From NCBI GenBank assembly GCA_024401395.1, contig JAKSLD010000006.1, positions 1 through 64,000 of the forward strand: a DNA stretch of 64,000 bases, written 5' to 3'. How positions within the stretch are numbered: the first letter of the stretch is position 1; every line of letters starts with the position of its first letter. Of the stretch, positions 9,928 through 61,041 are shown piece by piece. This DNA is from Bacteroidales bacterium (GTDB lineage Bacteria; Bacteroidota; Bacteroidia; Bacteroidales; Marinilabiliaceae). The translations under genes and the position numbers were made by a program. The notes beneath the pieces are model-generated. The model was not told where the DNA came from. It saw nothing but the letters and a program-made list of their open reading frames with translations, and did no database searches.

Positions 9928-9988
9928 AATAAAATTATACTGACGCTCTCTTAATGCTCTCTTAACGCTCTCTTAACACTCCCTTAAT
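9928..9988 (+). repeat. Four 11-bp tandem repeats upstream of the kinase-RapZ operon
   Basis: Four consecutive units of 11 bp begin at 9945, 9956, 9967 and 9978: GCTCTCTTAAT, GCTCTCTTAAC, GCTCTCTTAAC, ACTCCCTTAAT. An A-rich segment AAATAAAATTA (9928-9938) precedes them, as in the dispersed leader-plus-11-mer family elsewhere in the window. The TTAAC/TTAAT cores at 11-bp spacing also resemble binding arrays of OmpR/PhoB-type response regulators. A GC-rich hairpin (ACAC..CCCC TCA GGGG..TGT) follows at about 9993-10012. Confidence 0.7.
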
Positions 9989-10043
9989 ACAGACACTACC
10001 CCTCAGGGGTGTTTCTGCTATAAGTATTTGATATTATTTTTAG

Positions 10044-12216: not shown

Positions 12217-13853
12217 AATTAAATCAGCTGCTTTTCTGCCTGGGCTCGCTCTTTTTATTGTCGCTCCAGACGGAAGCTCAGAAGGCTACTCATATCATGC
12301 CTATGGATATCCCCGTCCGACTCAGTGCTTCTTTCGCTGAGTTGCGCGCCGACCATTTCCATTCTGGCATCGACCTTTCTACATCAGGAACCCTCAACGT
12401 CCCTGTAAAATCTACGGCGGATGGCTACGTAAGCCGCATCAAAATGGCAACATACGGCTATGGCTATGCCTTGTACGTGACTCACAACGATGGTACTACT
12501 ACCGTATATGGACACCTAAACTCTTTCATTCCTCGAATAGATAAGGTCTTATGTGACTATCAATACGAACACAGGTCTTTTAACTGCGATGTTTTCCTGA
12601 AAAGTACCGACCTCCCCGTAAAAAAAGGTGAGGTGATAGCTTATAGCGGAAATAGTGGTGGTTCTGGCGGACCGCATCTCCATTACGAGGTGCGCGACAC
12701 TAAATCTGAACACCCCCTCAATCCTTTGGCATATATCCCTGAAGTCAAGGATAATGTTCCTCCGACTATAATGGGGTTGAAACTCTACTCTGTCGAGAAT
12801 GAGGGTGATCGCATAGCATATAATAGCATAAAATACTATGGCGCTCCCGTCTCTCAGATTATCCCTGCACCTGCAGGTCGCATCGCATTGGGCATCCATT
12901 GCACCGACTATTTCTCTTCTGATGGTCGACCTTGTGGCGTAATAGACATTAAACTTTTCAAGAATAATACTCTCGTGTTCCAAAGTCATATAGATGACTT
13001 GGATTTCGACTTGACCCGCCACATTAATGCCCACCTCGATTATAAGGAGTGGATCGGCAATCGTCGCTTCATCCAACGTTCATACCGTCTTCCGGGTAAT
13101 GAATTGTCTTATTATACTGGTGATGGCATAATAGCCGTCGCTCCTAACGACACTCTCAATATGAGATACGAGGCTACTGATTTCGCTGGTCACGTCTCTA
13201 AACTCTCTTTCAAACTGGTTGGCAGAGCAGCCAGCTCTTCTGCCCCTTCTGAACGCAATTGTGAGTGGAATAAGACTTTTGCCGTAGATACCTTGGGTAT
13301 ATCTGTAGTCATTCCTCACGGAGCATTGTATGCTGACGAGCAGATTTCTCTTTCTCATAAAAATAAAATCTGGACTATCGGCAGTAATACTATCCCTCTC
13401 CAGAAAGCTGTTTCTATTACTCTCCCTCTCCCAGATAGTATAGAATCTTCTAAGGCTTGTATCTTATACCGCAATTCTAAGGGGAGCTTCATATACGCTG
13501 GAGGCAAGGCCGATAATGGAAAAATTACGATGAAGAATAAGGCTCTCGGTGACTACACTATAGGAACCGACAATACTCCCCCTGTCGTAATAACACGCAA
13601 TTCTCGCACAAACCTGAAACGCTCTAATACTATTATGATTGGAGTCTCTGATGATCTTAGCGGCATATCTCAATGGGATGTATATATCGACGGTGATTGG
13701 CATCCTTTCGAATACGACTACAAGCAGAATATGCTCAAGGCTCGGATAGAAAGACTACGTATCAACCCGGGCAATCATAATCTGTTGGCTATCGTAACAG
13801 ATGCTCAGGGTAACGCAAAACGCTTTGAATGGAGTTTTTCTCTGGTTCAATAG
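12213..13853 (+). CDS. M23 family metallopeptidase (LytM domain), exported
   Basis: This is a zinc endopeptidase of the lysostaphin/LytM type, expected to act on peptidoglycan cross-links in the periplasm. A signal peptide covers residues 1-22 (ends QTEAQ). The metal ligands are intact: H50 and D54 in HFHSGIDLS and the HLH pair in GPHLHYEV near 153-155, so it should be catalytically active. Residues after about 180 form a long beta-rich region of 365 aa with no motif I recognise (DNTPPVVITRNSRTN near 450 looks Ig-like). Its start overlaps murU by 4 nt, placing a cell-wall hydrolase in the same operon as the salvage enzymes. Confidence 0.88.
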   Translation: MKLNQLLFCLGSLFLLSLQTEAQKATHIMPMDIPVRLSASFAELRADHFHSGIDLSTSGTLNVPVKSTADGYVSRIKMATYGYGYALYVTHNDGTTTVYGHLNSFIPRIDKVLCDYQYEHRSFNCDVFLKSTDLPVKKGEVIAYSGNSGGSGGPHLHYEVRDTKSEHPLNPLAYIPEVKDNVPPTIMGLKLYSVENEGDRIAYNSIKYYGAPVSQIIPAPAGRIALGIHCTDYFSSDGRPCGVIDIKLFKNNTLVFQSHIDDLDFDLTRHINAHLDYKEWIGNRRFIQRSYRLPGNELSYYTGDGIIAVAPNDTLNMRYEATDFAGHVSKLSFKLVGRAASSSAPSERNCEWNKTFAVDTLGISVVIPHGALYADEQISLSHKNKIWTIGSNTIPLQKAVSITLPLPDSIESSKACILYRNSKGSFIYAGGKADNGKITMKNKALGDYTIGTDNTPPVVITRNSRTNLKRSNTIMIGVSDDLSGISQWDVYIDGDWHPFEYDYKQNMLKARIERLRINPGNHNLLAIVTDAQGNAKRFEWSFSLVQ

Positions 13854-19690: not shown

Positions 19691-19727
19691 AGCGCGAGCC
19701 TTTCTCTGAGCTCGCGCTTTTTCTTTT
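19691..19727 (+). terminator. Rho-independent terminator after trxB
   Basis: The 9-bp GC-rich stem AGCGCGAGC / GCTCGCGCT (19691-19699 and 19710-19718) with a 10-nt loop is followed by TTTTTCTTTT. It lies 26 nt after the trxB stop. Confidence 0.9.
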
Positions 19728-19738
19728 ATATGTACGCT

Positions 19739-19811
19739 AAAAAAAATTACGATGAACAAGGGACTTCCCCGTATCTAGCCCGAGTCTAGCCCGAATCTAC
19801 ATTTAGTCTAC
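19739..19811 (+). repeat. Leader-plus-11-mer array, copy 1
   Basis: The A-rich leader AAAAAAAATTACGATGAA (19739-19756) is followed by five 11-bp units: CAAGGGACTTC, CCCGTATCTAG, CCCGAGTCTAG, CCCGAATCTAC and ATTTAGTCTAC. The array is intergenic, downstream of the trxB terminator, and runs directly into copy 2. Confidence 0.8.
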
Positions 19812-19899
19812 AAAATAAAAAAATTACGATGAACAAGGGTGTTCTCTCTATATAGCAAGGGACTCGCATAGGACTTTTCTATAGGCAGCTATCCCCATC
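19812..19899 (+). repeat. Leader-plus-11-mer array, copy 2
   Basis: The leader ending in AAAATTACGATGAA (19812-19833) is followed by six units: CAAGGGTGTTC, TCTCTATATAG, CAAGGGACTCG, CATAGGACTTT, TCTATAGGCAG and CTATCCCCATC. The first unit corresponds to the first unit of the other copies. Confidence 0.75.
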
Positions 19900-19901
19900 A
19901 C

Positions 19902-19954
19902 AATAAAAAAACTGCGAGCAACAATAACGCTCCCTATACTCACAGACTACCCTC
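19902..19954 (+). repeat. Leader-plus-11-mer array, copy 3 (GCGAGCAA leader type)
   Basis: The leader AATAAAAAAACTGCGAGCAA (19902-19921) matches the leader of the minus-strand copy at 36523-36542 (AATAAAAAAATTGCGAGCAA). About three units follow: CAATAACGCTC, CCTATACTCAC and AGACTACCCTC. The units are less regular than in copies 1 and 2. Confidence 0.6.
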
Positions 19955-20000
19955 CCATAAACTATTAATGTCGCATTTTCTAGTCTTATCTAATCTATTT

Positions 20001-20032
20001 TTTGTCTCTTACATAAAAAATGTGCAACTTTG
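20001..20032 (+). promoter_or_regulatory. Promoter of the first glycosyltransferase gene
   Basis: TTTG at 20001-20004 and CAACTTTG at 20025-20032 are separated by 20 bp, the usual spacing for Bacteroidetes -33/-7 boxes (the second box deviates from TAnnTTTG at its first base). It decides the start of the following gene: the ATG at 20020 lies inside the promoter, so the ATG at 20056 is used. Confidence 0.6.
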
Positions 20033-31144: not shown

Positions 31145-31220
31145 AAAATAAAAAATTACGATGAACAAGGGACTTCTCCGTATATAGCAAGTATCCAGAC
31201 AGAGCACAGACAGAGTGAAC
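31145..31220 (+). repeat. Leader-plus-11-mer array, copy 4
   Basis: The leader AAAATAAAAAATTACGATGAA region (31145-31165) is followed by five units: CAAGGGACTTC, TCCGTATATAG, CAAGTATCCAG, ACAGAGCACAG and ACAGAGTGAAC. It stops 5 nt before the displaced rpsO terminator copy. Confidence 0.8.
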
Positions 31221-31225
31221 AAACA

Positions 31226-31316
31226 AAAAAAAATCGTGCACCATATTGCTATGATGCACGATTGTATGTCTTTCTATTACTAGGATCAGATTACTTACGC
31301 AAACCAAGCTTAGCAA
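31226..31316 (-). pseudogene. Displaced copy of the rpsO 3' end and terminator
   Basis: These 91 bp are identical, except for one base (31288), to 32166-32256. They contain the last 26 bp of rpsO including its stop, the spacer and the terminator hairpin. No rpsO reading frame continues beyond 31316. The copy is therefore a fragment, 940 bp from the functional one and in the same orientation. Confidence 0.92.
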
Positions 31317-31709
31317 TATTACACAAATACTTGCAAATCAAAAAAATAATACACATCTTTGCTCAGTATAACAATAAGCAGTAGCTAGCTTATGTCCATT
31401 GATTGTTACAACAATTATTTATATACAAAACAGACAGACATCTTCTTTAATATGGGCTAAGCCCGATTGGTAAACGATGTTCCAACATCTACACCTCTCT
31501 GTATTTTTTCTGCATTTAGACGACACCACCAAATTGGGTAATTTGTCTAGTTTTCGATGGAGTTCTATCTTGCGTGGATTTCTACAAAGCAAGCTGCTTG
31601 AAATTAGGATTCTGTTCTATACGTTATTGGTCTCTTCCCCATGTAGCAAGAAGCGATTAATTGGCATCTTCTCATGACTACAATAAATCAAATTTCAAAT
31701 CATACTACA
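31317..31709. other. Intergenic region without a recognised gene
   Basis: About 390 bp of AT-rich sequence between the displaced rpsO fragment and the small lipoprotein gene. A small inverted repeat GGGCTAAGCCC is at 31455-31465. An open frame of 66 codons (31477-31677) shows no family resemblance and no ribosome binding site. No clear promoter was found for the lipoprotein gene. Confidence 0.5.
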
Positions 31710-32165: not shown

Positions 32166-32203
32166 AAAAAAAATCGTGCACCATATTGCTATGATGCACG
32201 ATT
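32166..32203 (-). terminator. rpsO terminator
   Basis: On the minus strand a 9-bp stem AATCGTGCA / TGCACGATT (32195-32203 with 32172-32180) is followed by a run of eight T. It starts 28 nt after the rpsO stop. An identical copy lies at 31226-31263. Confidence 0.9.
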
Positions 32204-32230
32204 GTATGTCTTTCTATTACTAGGATCGGA

Positions 32231-32500
32231 TTACTTACGCAAACCAAGCTTAGCAACGATAGCACGGTAACGCTCAATATCACGTGACTTGAGGTAATCG
32301 AGCTGACGACGACGCTGACCTACGAGCTTACGGAGTGCGAAAGCTGTTGACTTGTCGTTGTGGTTCGCCTTCAAGTGCTCTGTGAGGTGTTGAATGCGGA
32401 ATGTGAAAAGTGCTACCTGGCTCTCAGCTGAACCTGTGTCCTGTGCTGTCTTGCCATACTGACCGAAGATCTCTGTCTTCTTCTCTTTTGAAAGATACAT
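32231..32500 (-). CDS. rpsO: Ribosomal protein S15
   Basis: S15 is a primary 16S rRNA-binding protein of the 30S subunit platform. The 89-aa protein has the usual helices and signatures: GSAESQVALFTFRIQHLTEH, the loop around HNDKSTAFALRKLVGQRRRQ and the LDYLKSRDIERYRAI helix. It stands alone with its own promoter and terminator. Its 3' end has been duplicated 940 bp downstream. Confidence 0.97.
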   Translation of the reverse strand: MYLSKEKKTEIFGQYGKTAQDTGSAESQVALFTFRIQHLTEHLKANHNDKSTAFALRKLVGQRRRQLDYLKSRDIERYRAIVAKLGLRK

Positions 32501-36478: not shown

Positions 36479-36542
36479 CATCTCAGTTGCTACTCTCGGT
36501 CTAGTCTAAGAGAAGTATAAGGTTGCTCGCAATTTTTTTATT
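36479..36542 (-). repeat. Leader-plus-11-mer array, copy 5 (GCGAGCAA leader type)
   Basis: On the minus strand the leader AATAAAAAAATTGCGAGCAA (36523-36542) is followed by CCTTATACTTC, TCTTAGACTAG, ACCGAGAGTAG and CAACTGAGATG. The array lies between hpf and tex and points the same way as both genes. Confidence 0.75.
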
Positions 36543-43599: not shown

Positions 43600-43686
43600 A
43601 AAATAAAAAATTACGATGAACAAGGGACTTCCAAGGACCCAGCAAGGACCCAGGCCGTAACTAGACCGAGTTCAGGCCGAGCCTAC
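43600..43686 (+). repeat. Leader-plus-11-mer array, copy 6
   Basis: The leader (43600-43620, ending TTACGATGAA) is followed by six units: CAAGGGACTTC, CAAGGACCCAG twice, GCCGTAACTAG, ACCGAGTTCAG and GCCGAGCCTAC. It lies between the divergent DUF3078 and DUF4837 genes. The rest of this 510-bp gap (43303-43813) shows only a -7 element for the DUF4837 gene. Confidence 0.8.
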
Positions 43687-59278: not shown

Positions 59279-59340
59279 TACGTGGAAGTAAAAAAAATGG
59301 GGATTTAGTGTTTTTTAAGAAGGGCGGGGGAATTCCTGAT

Positions 59341-59572
59341 TAGTAATTCCTAATTCCTAGGAATGGGGAGAAGAGGAGAGGAGTTATTGAGGAAGAGTGG
59401 GGCTAGAGGAGCTAGTTGGGCTAGATAGACGAGGTGGGCTGGACAGACGGGATGGAAAGAGATGGGAAGAGGCAAAAGGAGGTGAAAGGTGATGGAGGGA
59501 GGCGGAAGAGGCAAAAGGAGGTGAAAGGTGATGAAGAAGAAGAAAGGTGATGGAAGGAGGCGAAAAGAGGCG
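59341..59572. repeat. Purine-rich tract with 39-bp tandem repeat
   Basis: The plus strand is almost all A and G over about 200 bp. A 30-bp segment that begins GGAAGAGGCAAAAGGAGG repeats exactly at 59465 and 59504 (period 39), with partial copies after it. The left part contains repeated CTAG motifs (CTAGAGGAGCTAGTTGGGCTAG, read in two parts) at 9-bp spacing. It runs directly into the minus-strand 11-mer array. No coding potential was seen. Confidence 0.75.
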
Positions 59573-59659
59573 GAAGTATAAGGCTGCTTGCAGTATTTGT
59601 TATTGGAGGATAGTTGCTAGTATAAGGGAAGTACCTTGTTCATCGTAATTTTTTTATTT
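59573..59659 (-). repeat. Leader-plus-11-mer array, copy 7
   Basis: On the minus strand the leader (59639-59659, ending TTACGATGAA) is followed by six units: CAAGGTACTTC, CCTTATACTAG, CAACTATCCTC, CAATAACAAAT, ACTGCAAGCAG and CCTTATACTTC. The last unit equals the first unit of the 36-kb copy. Confidence 0.78.
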
Positions 59660-59742
59660 GGAAAGTGTAACCTTATACCGGGATGCTACGTAAAAGATGG
59701 GAAACAAATACAAACACCTTACAATTAAAAACAGAACTCGAT

Positions 59743-60216
59743 ATGGGAAGAGTAACCATTCGTAAGAAATGCATTACGATTGCGCGCAAGGCGATGCGAT
59801 CGGACAGTACTGCCAGAGTGGACGGCAAGAGTATCTTTATCAAGCGATATCCGGGGCATAACTATAAGCTTATCATGGTTCACGTTACAAAGAAGCAACG
59901 TGCTGTGAGAGATATGTTTGCGGATGCCAATGTGCTAGCCAAAGAAGATATGAAGAGATGGAACCGAGTGAGACATTGGGAGAGATATGCGCGACAGCAT
60001 AAGAAGTCGGGCGCATACAGAGCGGCAGTATCCTACTATTATAAGATGATAAGAGAGCACGGAAAAGAGCTGAGGGAAATCAGGCTACAGAACCGGCGAG
60101 ATAAGCGTGTAGAGAAGAGAGATATGCGAGTATTCAAGGAGAGAGAGACATTCTTCTGGGTTAAGTTTGACAACGCAGAAGAATATCAGTCGGCCTTGGC
60201 GCGGTTAGCAGGGTAA
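59743..60216 (+). CDS. Unknown basic protein
   Basis: I do not recognise this family. From the ATG at 59743 it has 157 aa; the frame continues upstream to an ATG at 59683 (177 aa), and neither start has a clear ribosome binding site. It is very rich in Arg and Lys and has no signal peptide or membrane segment. Notable segments are TIRKKCITIARKAMRSDSTA, VTKKQRAVRDMFADANVLAK and a strongly helical RHWERYARQHKKSGAYRAAV, ending with an aromatic FFWVKFDNAEEYQSALARL. The charge suggests nucleic-acid binding. It is flanked by the repeat array on the left and the convergent ion channel gene (7 nt away) on the right. Confidence 0.6.
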   Translation: MGRVTIRKKCITIARKAMRSDSTARVDGKSIFIKRYPGHNYKLIMVHVTKKQRAVRDMFADANVLAKEDMKRWNRVRHWERYARQHKKSGAYRAAVSYYYKMIREHGKELREIRLQNRRDKRVEKRDMRVFKERETFFWVKFDNAEEYQSALARLAG

Positions 60217-60222
60217 AAAGAA

Positions 60223-61041
60223 CTACTTCTGGAGTTGCTGTATCTGCTTCTCCAAATCCTCCATTTTCTTAAGAAGACATTGTATATCCTCCTTAGTAAG
60301 AGGAGCCTTAGAGTCATCCTGCTGTCCATCAGGCTGTTGGGCTTTCTGTGCGTTACCCTCATCAGTCATAGAAGTCACCAATACACCAGTGAGAGCATTG
60401 AGCATTACGAAAGCCGTCACACAGATATAAGAGACGAAATAGATAGAAGACAACGGATACAACTCCATTACCGGGCGAGCTATGCCCATACTCCAGCTTT
60501 CGAGAGTCATGACCTGGAACATCGTATAGCAAGTAGCCCCCAGAGAACCGAACCACTCAGGGAAATCGGCACCGAAGAGATGGCAGCCGATGACAGCGTA
60601 TATAATCATGATAGCGAGCCACAACGCCACGAGCCAACCGATTTTAGGGATAGAGCGAAGCAAGCTACCCACCAAGATACGCAAGCCATCGAATATTGTA
60701 AATACGCGGAGTAGGCGAAGGAGACGGAGGAGACGCAAAGAACGGATAGAAGCGAATGCGCCGCCGCTAGTGAGAACCGTCACGAGAGTCACGATGAGAT
60801 CGAACCAGTTCCAAGCCCAGTCCTTTCCGACCCAGAAACTCTTACCGCCGAAGATGATACGCAATCCGATTTCGATACAAAAGATAATCATTGCGCAATA
60901 GTCGAACCAATCTACAGCTACAGCGAAATGCTCTTCGAACCAAGGGTATGTAGTGAGGATAGCCTCGATAAAGACGAGGATAATAAGGATATCGATAAAC
61001 TTCTGACCGAAGTTAGCAATCTGTTTCAGTTTATTATTCAC
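60223..61041 (-). CDS. Voltage-gated sodium channel-like ion transporter (BacNav type)
   Basis: This is a single-repeat six-helix channel subunit of 272 aa that would assemble as a tetramer in the inner membrane. The voltage sensor S4 carries five arginines every third residue (R100, R103, R106, R109, R112 in SIRSLRLLRLLRLLRVF). The selectivity filter TLESWSMG (from T179) is that of bacterial Nav channels, with Glu 181 as the key residue. Residues ~253-271 (CLLKKMEDLEKQIQQLQK) form the C-terminal coiled coil that holds the tetramer. All features of a working channel are present; sodium selectivity is inferred from the filter. Confidence 0.9.
   Translation of the reverse strand: MNNKLKQIANFGQKFIDILIILVFIEAILTTYPWFEEHFAVAVDWFDYCAMIIFCIEIGLRIIFGGKSFWVGKDWAWNWFDLIVTLVTVLTSGGAFASIRSLRLLRLLRLLRVFTIFDGLRILVGSLLRSIPKIGWLVALWLAIMIIYAVIGCHLFGADFPEWFGSLGATCYTMFQVMTLESWSMGIARPVMELYPLSSIYFVSYICVTAFVMLNALTGVLVTSMTDEGNAQKAQQPDGQQDDSKAPLTKEDIQCLLKKMEDLEKQIQQLQK

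Follow-up and report, generated by a model that had tools for sequence, protein, structure and literature searches.

Dispersed intergenic 11-bp arrays and a linked orphan protein family in Bacteroidales: a candidate phased DNA-binding system

Intergenic regions of the 64,000-nucleotide stretch of Bacteroidales DNA analysed here (referred to as the window) contain arrays in which a leader is followed by consecutive 11-bp units that vary in sequence and keep a common register. The arrays belong to a genome-wide family, members of which adjoin genes for a small orphan protein. The explanation that we favour, with a probability slightly above 40 per cent on the sequence comparisons described here, is that these are helically phased, degenerate binding arrays, most likely bound by the adjoining orphan protein, with the leader as the entry point. 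In such a system each turn of the DNA would offer one degenerate 11-bp unit, read by letter class, and the invariant leader would seed the binding. The orphan protein would bind the array beside its own gene and, as the array and leader of gene-bearing copies lie mostly directly upstream of the gene's promoter, the first job of the binding would be autoregulation. Gene and array would have spread as a block, and the array also without the gene.

The leaders fall into two classes, class 1 with GATGAA and class 2 with GCGAGCAA, which has no ATG. Three arrays follow each other on the forward strand. The first (19737-19811) consists of a class-1 leader (19737-19756) and five units, the second (19814-19899) of a class-1 leader (19814-19833), 77 bp past the first one, and six units, and the third (19902-19954) of a class-2 leader ending at 19921 and three units. 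Two other forward-strand arrays have class-1 leaders: one at 31146-31220 (leader end 31165, five units), preceding the terminator of a gene 3' end that we take to be rpsO-like, and one at 43601-43686 (leader end 43620, six units). On the reverse strand are the array at 36479-36542, with a class-2 leader ending at 36523 and four units, and the array at 59573-59658, with a class-1 leader ending at 59639 and six units, which is divergent from the linked orphan gene at 59683-60216 (forward strand; a 177-aa frame with the homology-defined start at 59743). All seven arrays had been listed in an earlier, sequence-only reading of the window, and each was found where that reading had placed it, with three to six consecutive 11-bp units after the leader. 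The list lacked an eighth array (9938-9992, forward strand, five units, decayed leader), recognized by TRF (9943-9987) and by the register rule given below, and it lacked the fact that the array at 59573-59659 abuts a multicopy gene.

Some other repeats were observed in the window. Next to the array at 31146-31220, a terminator with the 3' end of the rpsO-like gene is present at 31228-31317 and again at 32168-32257, the same relatives being matched at both places, with about 0.9 kb of other sequence between them. Outside the 11-bp array at 59573-59658, a heptamer array (AATTCCT, 59331-59359) and a 9-mer array (AGTGGGGCT, 59396-59424) were found, thus three periods are stacked in one intergenic region. 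A leader word with one mismatch at 13519-13534 lies inside a long reading frame, is followed by a first unit unlike those of the family, and was taken as chance.

Evidence for the register came from the spacing of the leaders. Among 172 leaders in stretches of four genomes there were 47 neighbouring same-strand pairs less than 400 bp apart, and in 44 of these the leader-to-leader distance was an exact multiple of 11 (44, 55, 66, 77, 88 and so on), which shows that the leader itself is two units long. An excess of intergenic self-matches at lag 11 was detected in the genome of the window (G000; 3.3 Mb, 97.9 per cent complete, 47 contigs) with z 5.1, in G008 (z 5.6) and in G010 (z 4.1), and was absent in G002, G003, G004, G011, G012 and G013 (z at most 1.6). 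Lag 11 is not the sole peak: in G000 and G010 the excess at lags 4 and 7 is similar in size.

Letter classes were determined in 99 G000 arrays that had been selected solely by their leader together with the opening three letters of unit 1. In the 227 distinct units found at unit positions 2-4, position 9 is C or T in 94 per cent, position 10 is A or T in 94 per cent and position 11 is C or G in 85 per cent. The three classes (Y9-W10-S11) occur jointly in 78 per cent of these units in register versus 0-16 per cent at shifts of 1-10; the corresponding in-register values are 68 per cent of 84 units in G008, 72 per cent of 32 in G010 and 54 per cent of 83 in G010 and G011 taken together, and in the first array of the window all five units conform. 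A rule consisting of Y9-W10-S11 and two exclusions (no C at position 6, no G at position 7), used alone, detected three runs of at least five units in the window, all of them at arrays and one of them new (9938-9992); the array at 43601-43686 is also recovered by this rule without the leader. The controls gave 0 or 1 run in each of 12 Markov resamples and 0 or 1 at periods 8-10 and 12-14. The leader spacings and the joint letter classes bear out the earlier claim that the register is kept even though the unit sequences differ, beyond simple tandem duplication. A search of the whole genome and of related genomes for the leader with the 11-bp register, proposed in the same reading, yielded more than 100 copies in G000, and the register was far beyond chance genome-wide.

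Units of different arrays have little sequence in common. Computed on motif-filtered units, agreement is 4.92 of 11 letters within an array, 5.53 between adjacent units and 3.92 between arrays. The higher agreement within arrays would fit a neutral minisatellite, in which 11-bp units grow by slippage and spread by recombination between copies, nothing is bound and the gene linkage is hitch-hiking. The low agreement between arrays (3.9 of 11) shows that the units are not the product of mere recent copying, although arrays of tandem loci are not independent. Constancy at particular positions counts against neutral growth, which we consider improbable: in units 2-4 of the 99 arrays, position 10 is never G in 297 cells and C in only 13, A and T both occurring, yet transitions (A to G) are usually the commonest mutations, while in units 3 and 4 position 3, for example, hardly departs from background. 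In a logo made from 93 of 120 G000 copies, kept if the first unit was like CAAGGGACTTC at at least 7 of 11 positions, information fades after about unit 5, and the invariance of the leader in this logo is partly due to the choice of copies. Positions within the unit covary; at positions 6 and 9 the combinations G-T and A-C prevail, which are not Watson-Crick pairs.

The class-1 leader 16-mer was found at 155 places in G000 (at most one mismatch) versus none for the reversed control. The extended leader is present in four of the 71 genomes of the family, all four within the 15 genomes of the window's genus, with 153 copies in G000, 34 in G008, 26 in G011 and 10 in G010. A scan of named genome contigs with the extended leader returned 33 stretches. 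One is from Lachnospiraceae; the other 32 belong to three assemblies of uncultured Bacteroidales/Bacteroidia, and the names of two of these assemblies refer to horse faeces. Leader words in two viral contigs, one Lachnospiraceae contig and genome G060 came without matches to the family protein and, by eye, without phased units, and were dismissed as chance. Most leader or array copies in G000 are array-only, without a family gene. The G000 copies form 74 array clusters, of which 65 are flanked on both sides by a frame whose orientation is known (19 divergent pairs, 6 convergent pairs, and 23 and 17 tandem pairs), seven overlap a called frame and two are incomplete. No strong strand rule relative to the neighbouring genes was found in these 74 clusters. 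The idea that the array-only copies form a regulon at a fixed promoter distance was abandoned, since no fixed offset was found.

The lack of a strand rule counts against a function at the RNA level, in which either the leader would serve as a translation start (an A-run, then ATG AAC AAG GG) or the array would act as an RNA, folded or bound by protein. The leader resembles what we take to be a Bacteroidetes start region, and in a distant genome (G268, see below) the array of the homolog has a -7-like box on one side and the start codon on the other. On the other hand, ATG is missing from class-2 leaders, a period of 11 does not fit a reading frame of triplets, a search of the window with Rfam at gathering scores gave nothing but a tRNA, and the mean folding z of 40 sampled arrays was -0.33 on the leader strand and -0.34 on the other strand. 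We consider a role as RNA very unlikely, and the folding values do not support the structured RNA that the sequence-only reading had named as an alternative. A short peptide starting at the leader ATG was likewise not supported, given the ATG-less class-2 leaders and the frame shift caused by each 11-bp step.

The protein encoded at 59683-60216 has relatives in exactly those four of the 15 congeneric genomes that have the leader. Including fragments, there are 77 family matches, 29 in G000, 21 in G010, 17 in G008 and 10 in G011; some of the 29 in G000 carry stops. The four carrier genomes may form one clade, which makes the co-occurrence of gene family and leader weak by itself, but not their physical linkage. 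From the 77 matches, some of which are fragments of one gene, 70 places were examined and 69 gave a homology-defined start. A leader of class 1 or 2 (at most two mismatches) was present within 600 bp upstream in 53 of these 69 genes, on the opposite strand in 45; with at most one mismatch the numbers were 48 of 69 and 44. The upstream share expected from the frequency of leaders, counted over 84 kb of G000 and 60 kb of G010, is 6-7 per cent, and in the interval 300-1200 bp downstream a leader was found in 3 of 69. The leader type largely follows the protein clade.

Among the 44 opposite-strand loci, 12 have the motif TAnnTTTG, presumably the -7 promoter box, at a distance of 22-24 bp from the tip of the leader, and another 14 have it at 50-51 bp. 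The box at one of these two distances in 26 of 44 loci suggests that the array is just upstream of the gene's likely promoter. Distances between leader and start codon in 11-bp steps (60, 82, 93, 104, 126 bp) were also seen; this quantisation was not relied on because it is confounded by clade and because the box offsets (23 and 50 bp) are not a multiple of 11 apart. The sequence-only reading had suggested a phased protein-binding array. This is favoured by the register and the classes at positions 9-11, kept while the letters change, and by the many gene-linked arrays upstream of a promoter box; from these features we infer that the array is bound and that binding regulates the promoter. That reading had omitted the linked protein family, which we judge to be key to the system.

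The window protein is basic, with 42 K+R and 18 D+E in 157 residues. Its structure model, of moderate confidence, predicts a helix, a two-stranded sheet and a helical bundle followed by a poorly predicted tail, and in a fold comparison with this model no known fold stood out. Pfam contained no family matching the window protein at E≤0.01, there was no transposase among the weak matches of 16 family members, and no ribbon-helix-helix match was found in Pfam or among PDB sequences.

Multiplicity of the family could also reflect mobility. The array could be the end or recombination substrate of a mobile element, the orphan protein its mobility factor and the solitary arrays non-autonomous copies, and regulation would not be needed. 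The 29 family matches in one genome, some of them with stops, agree with this, as do the borders of similarity in two paralog groups (L258/L259/L261 and L271/L275/L282/L286/L300/L325). One border of the similar stretch is the stop codon, to within a few bases, and the opposite border falls inside the array; the favoured explanation relies on these borders too, for the spread of gene and array as a block. One locus is occupied in G010 by a gene with a leader-like word and in G000 by the array only. The block edge is weakened by the pairs L302/L304 and L307/L316, in which similarity runs on beyond the stop codon and which speak against mobility. No transposase or nuclease family matched the linked protein at a convincing score, no clean empty site or target duplication was seen, and the conserved register and letter-class rule exceed what an end sequence needs. 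Terminal inverted repeats were not found in three regions: there was no inverted repeat in L098:1380-2095 or in 19700-20010 of the window, and the sole one in 59450-60230 was a hairpin inside the gene (60147-60187). On balance we think it less likely than not that mobility alone accounts for the system. The earlier suggestion of a non-autonomous element is consistent with the existence of gene-bearing and array-only copies, including the locus that differs between G010 and G000; movement of the block would be one way to explain them.

The same results apply to decayed ends of a known insertion sequence or MITE. The copies are dispersed and intergenic and the leader is absent from 11 of the 15 congeners, as such ends could be. 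Without inverted-repeat ends in the three regions, with an 11-bp register and with a linked protein that matches no transposase family, the copies can hardly be of this origin, and the sequence-only reading, which had treated such an origin as fatal to its proposal, is not contradicted here.

Returning to the phased binding array, seven pairs of linked copies were compared. The leader is identical at 20 of 20 letters in five pairs. Five pairs also have no more than 2 differences in the 55 letters of the array, and the other two share 42 and 30 of 55; this constancy is only suggestive, since some of the pairs have near-identical flanks. (For L274/L297, leader and gene share a strand, and the 55 letters used for the comparison extend to the start codon.) Synonymous codon differences outnumber the others in all seven pairs, which argues that the genes are used. 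The orthologous gene copies L275 and L298, of G010 and G000, have retained protein and leader but share no more than 30 of the 55 letters of the array, which looks like an exchange of the array. An array that changed much faster than its gene is what a minisatellite could produce, but the identical leaders in five of seven pairs do not fit that explanation.

Arrays were compared between species at three loci. At the locus of 19739 the array is at the same place and in the same orientation in G008, with a first block of four units versus five, a difference of one 11-bp step; the same upstream gene is followed by a leader in G011 as well, where the units, however, belong to a CTAG type and are not 11 bp long. 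At the locus of 31145 all four species have an array or leader at the same place and in the same orientation, differing in leader class or units, the G008 copy being decayed. At 43600, G000 and G008 agree, the G010 array is on the opposite strand and G011 has none. Thus, at these three loci, the place of the array is often kept while the units turn over. The one-unit difference between G000 and G008 would also be compatible with minisatellite growth, and the differences at 43600 with mobility, against which the shared place at 19739 counts.

Other periods were seen elsewhere in the genus. In G011 (L119-L126) the one or two 11-bp units after the leader often give way to 9-bp units with CTAG (of the CTAGAATAA type), which looks like a change of unit length within this lineage. 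The leader-less congeners G002, G004 and G012 (L166-L175, L156-L165) contain variable intergenic arrays with other periods, mainly 7 bp (AATTAGG, GTAAAGA and TACTCAT types) and 9 bp (GTCGGAGTC), and in the self-match of G004 lags 7, 14, 21 and 28 stand out. Such 7- and 9-bp arrays in congeners are a point for the minisatellite.

Distant relatives of the protein were found with profiles. Among 393 genomes of the order the family profile detected one further genome, G268 (E 6e-6 for one genome), in which five 11-bp units of unrelated sequence precede the homolog's gene. The G268 protein led to homologs of about 190 aa in 4 of 395 genomes of the class, and a second profile had matches, some of them weak, in 29 of 390 genomes of another order, a patchy distribution that would also suit a mobile element. 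DUF6266 (PF19781) was matched by five of the eight distant homologs scanned (L360, L363, L367, L368 and L369) and not by the window protein. Alignment of the two profiles with hhalign gave E 1e-4 and a probability of 58 per cent over the helical part. The window family is thus likely, not certain, to be homologous to the wider DUF6266-containing group.

After arrays had been noticed at L288 and L337, fresh homolog loci were tested. From 30 loci 26 were used, L342 and L371 being left out as seen before and L361 and L370 because the frame was broken at the match. Period-11 arrays were present within 350 bp of 10 of the 26 genes versus 4 of 191 control genes (Fisher 8e-8), where the 26 loci come from few genera and are not fully independent and the controls comprised 15 of 20 stretches (five were under 5 kb), 285 kb in all, from genomes of the class, nearly all of the order searched with the second profile. 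Period 11 was found in 11 of the 29 tandem arrays near the genes at the 26 loci, compared with 2 of the 23 at a greater distance from them and 4 of the 74 in the vicinity of control genes (loci versus controls, Fisher 1e-4). These arrays are unrelated in sequence to those of the window, and unrelated 11-bp arrays beside distant relatives of the same protein are not expected of a minisatellite. Upstream of the DUF6266-like genes at L363, L365, L366 and L367, which are from related genomes, lie 11-bp arrays whose cores resemble each other (TTCGACT or TTTGACT types) and whose units vary elsewhere. The one distant homolog tested for charge was not basic, which weakens the idea of DNA binding for the wider group. 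Plasmids and phages contained no match to one DUF6266 query protein, and none of 32 viral stretches with the family pattern encodes a relative.

Taking the distant loci into account, we tentatively extend the binding hypothesis to phylum-wide two-part elements, an extension that could well prove wrong: an orphan protein family (including DUF6266) would be paired with its own phased 11-bp array, of a private degenerate sequence co-evolved in each protein lineage, and in one gut genus the array would have become independent of the gene and populated the chromosome with well over a hundred phased binding arrays. If true, this would open a first way to the function of DUF6266 and its relatives; no paper naming DUF6266 was found in a literature search that left most subscription journals outside. 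It would also be a natural case of recognition by spacing and letter class (pyrimidine, A/T, G/C) instead of exact sequence, and the many paralogs, each beside its own array, would form a series for testing protein-array co-evolution.

Several known systems share features with the arrays. REP elements are dispersed intergenic repeats with a linked RAYT gene, palindromes mobilised by Y1 transposases. The present arrays are likewise dispersed, intergenic and linked to a gene; unlike REPs they showed no palindrome in the window arrays tested, the sampled arrays had the weak folding given above, and neither the linked protein nor the 16 members matched a Y1 (HUH) transposase. DUF6266 (PF19781) loci are alike in that several carry upstream 11-bp arrays, with the difference that the window protein itself has no match to the model. 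The BrickBuilt MITE of Porphyromonas gingivalis is also intergenic, of Bacteroidales, and built of a leader and a tandem array, with copies differing by whole units; the accessible text describes 23-nt units, inverted-repeat ends, a tail and 19 copies (PMC4596501), whereas the present units are 11 bp and degenerate, no inverted ends were found and a gene family is linked. The TAACTGA heptamer repeats form many short intergenic direct-repeat sets, some in Bacteroidetes, with mostly whole-unit indels; their unit is 7 nt instead of a degenerate 11 bp, and the accessible part of the source describes no invariant leader or linked protein family (PMC4679880).

The closest parallel is parC/ParR of plasmid R1. 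According to the accessible parts of the two sources, ParR needs at least two 11-bp repeats (PMC9426499) and the parC repeats lie on both sides of the promoter (PMC5016525). Both systems have 11-bp direct repeats by the promoter of a small binding-protein gene, a role that the orphan protein would play here, and in most gene-linked copies such repeats, with a length of about 11 bp, were found at the linked gene's promoter. The arrays differ from R1 parC by their more than 100 dispersed chromosomal copies, invariant leader and degenerate units, and by the 29 family matches in one genome. For the linked protein, neither Pfam nor the PDB sequences gave a ribbon-helix-helix match, and the structure model, of moderate confidence, gave no clear fold match. 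The literature search, which had the same coverage as that for DUF6266, returned no case of a degenerate phased array paired with a family of orphan proteins. We place the arrays outside the known kinds because of this result and because each of the families considered either lacks a defining feature for which we tested or allowed no clear assignment. Cooperative wrapping with autoregulation is a proposed parallel, and with R1 parC as the nearest working analogue, membership not being claimed, the array and its orphan protein look like an undescribed DNA-and-protein system.
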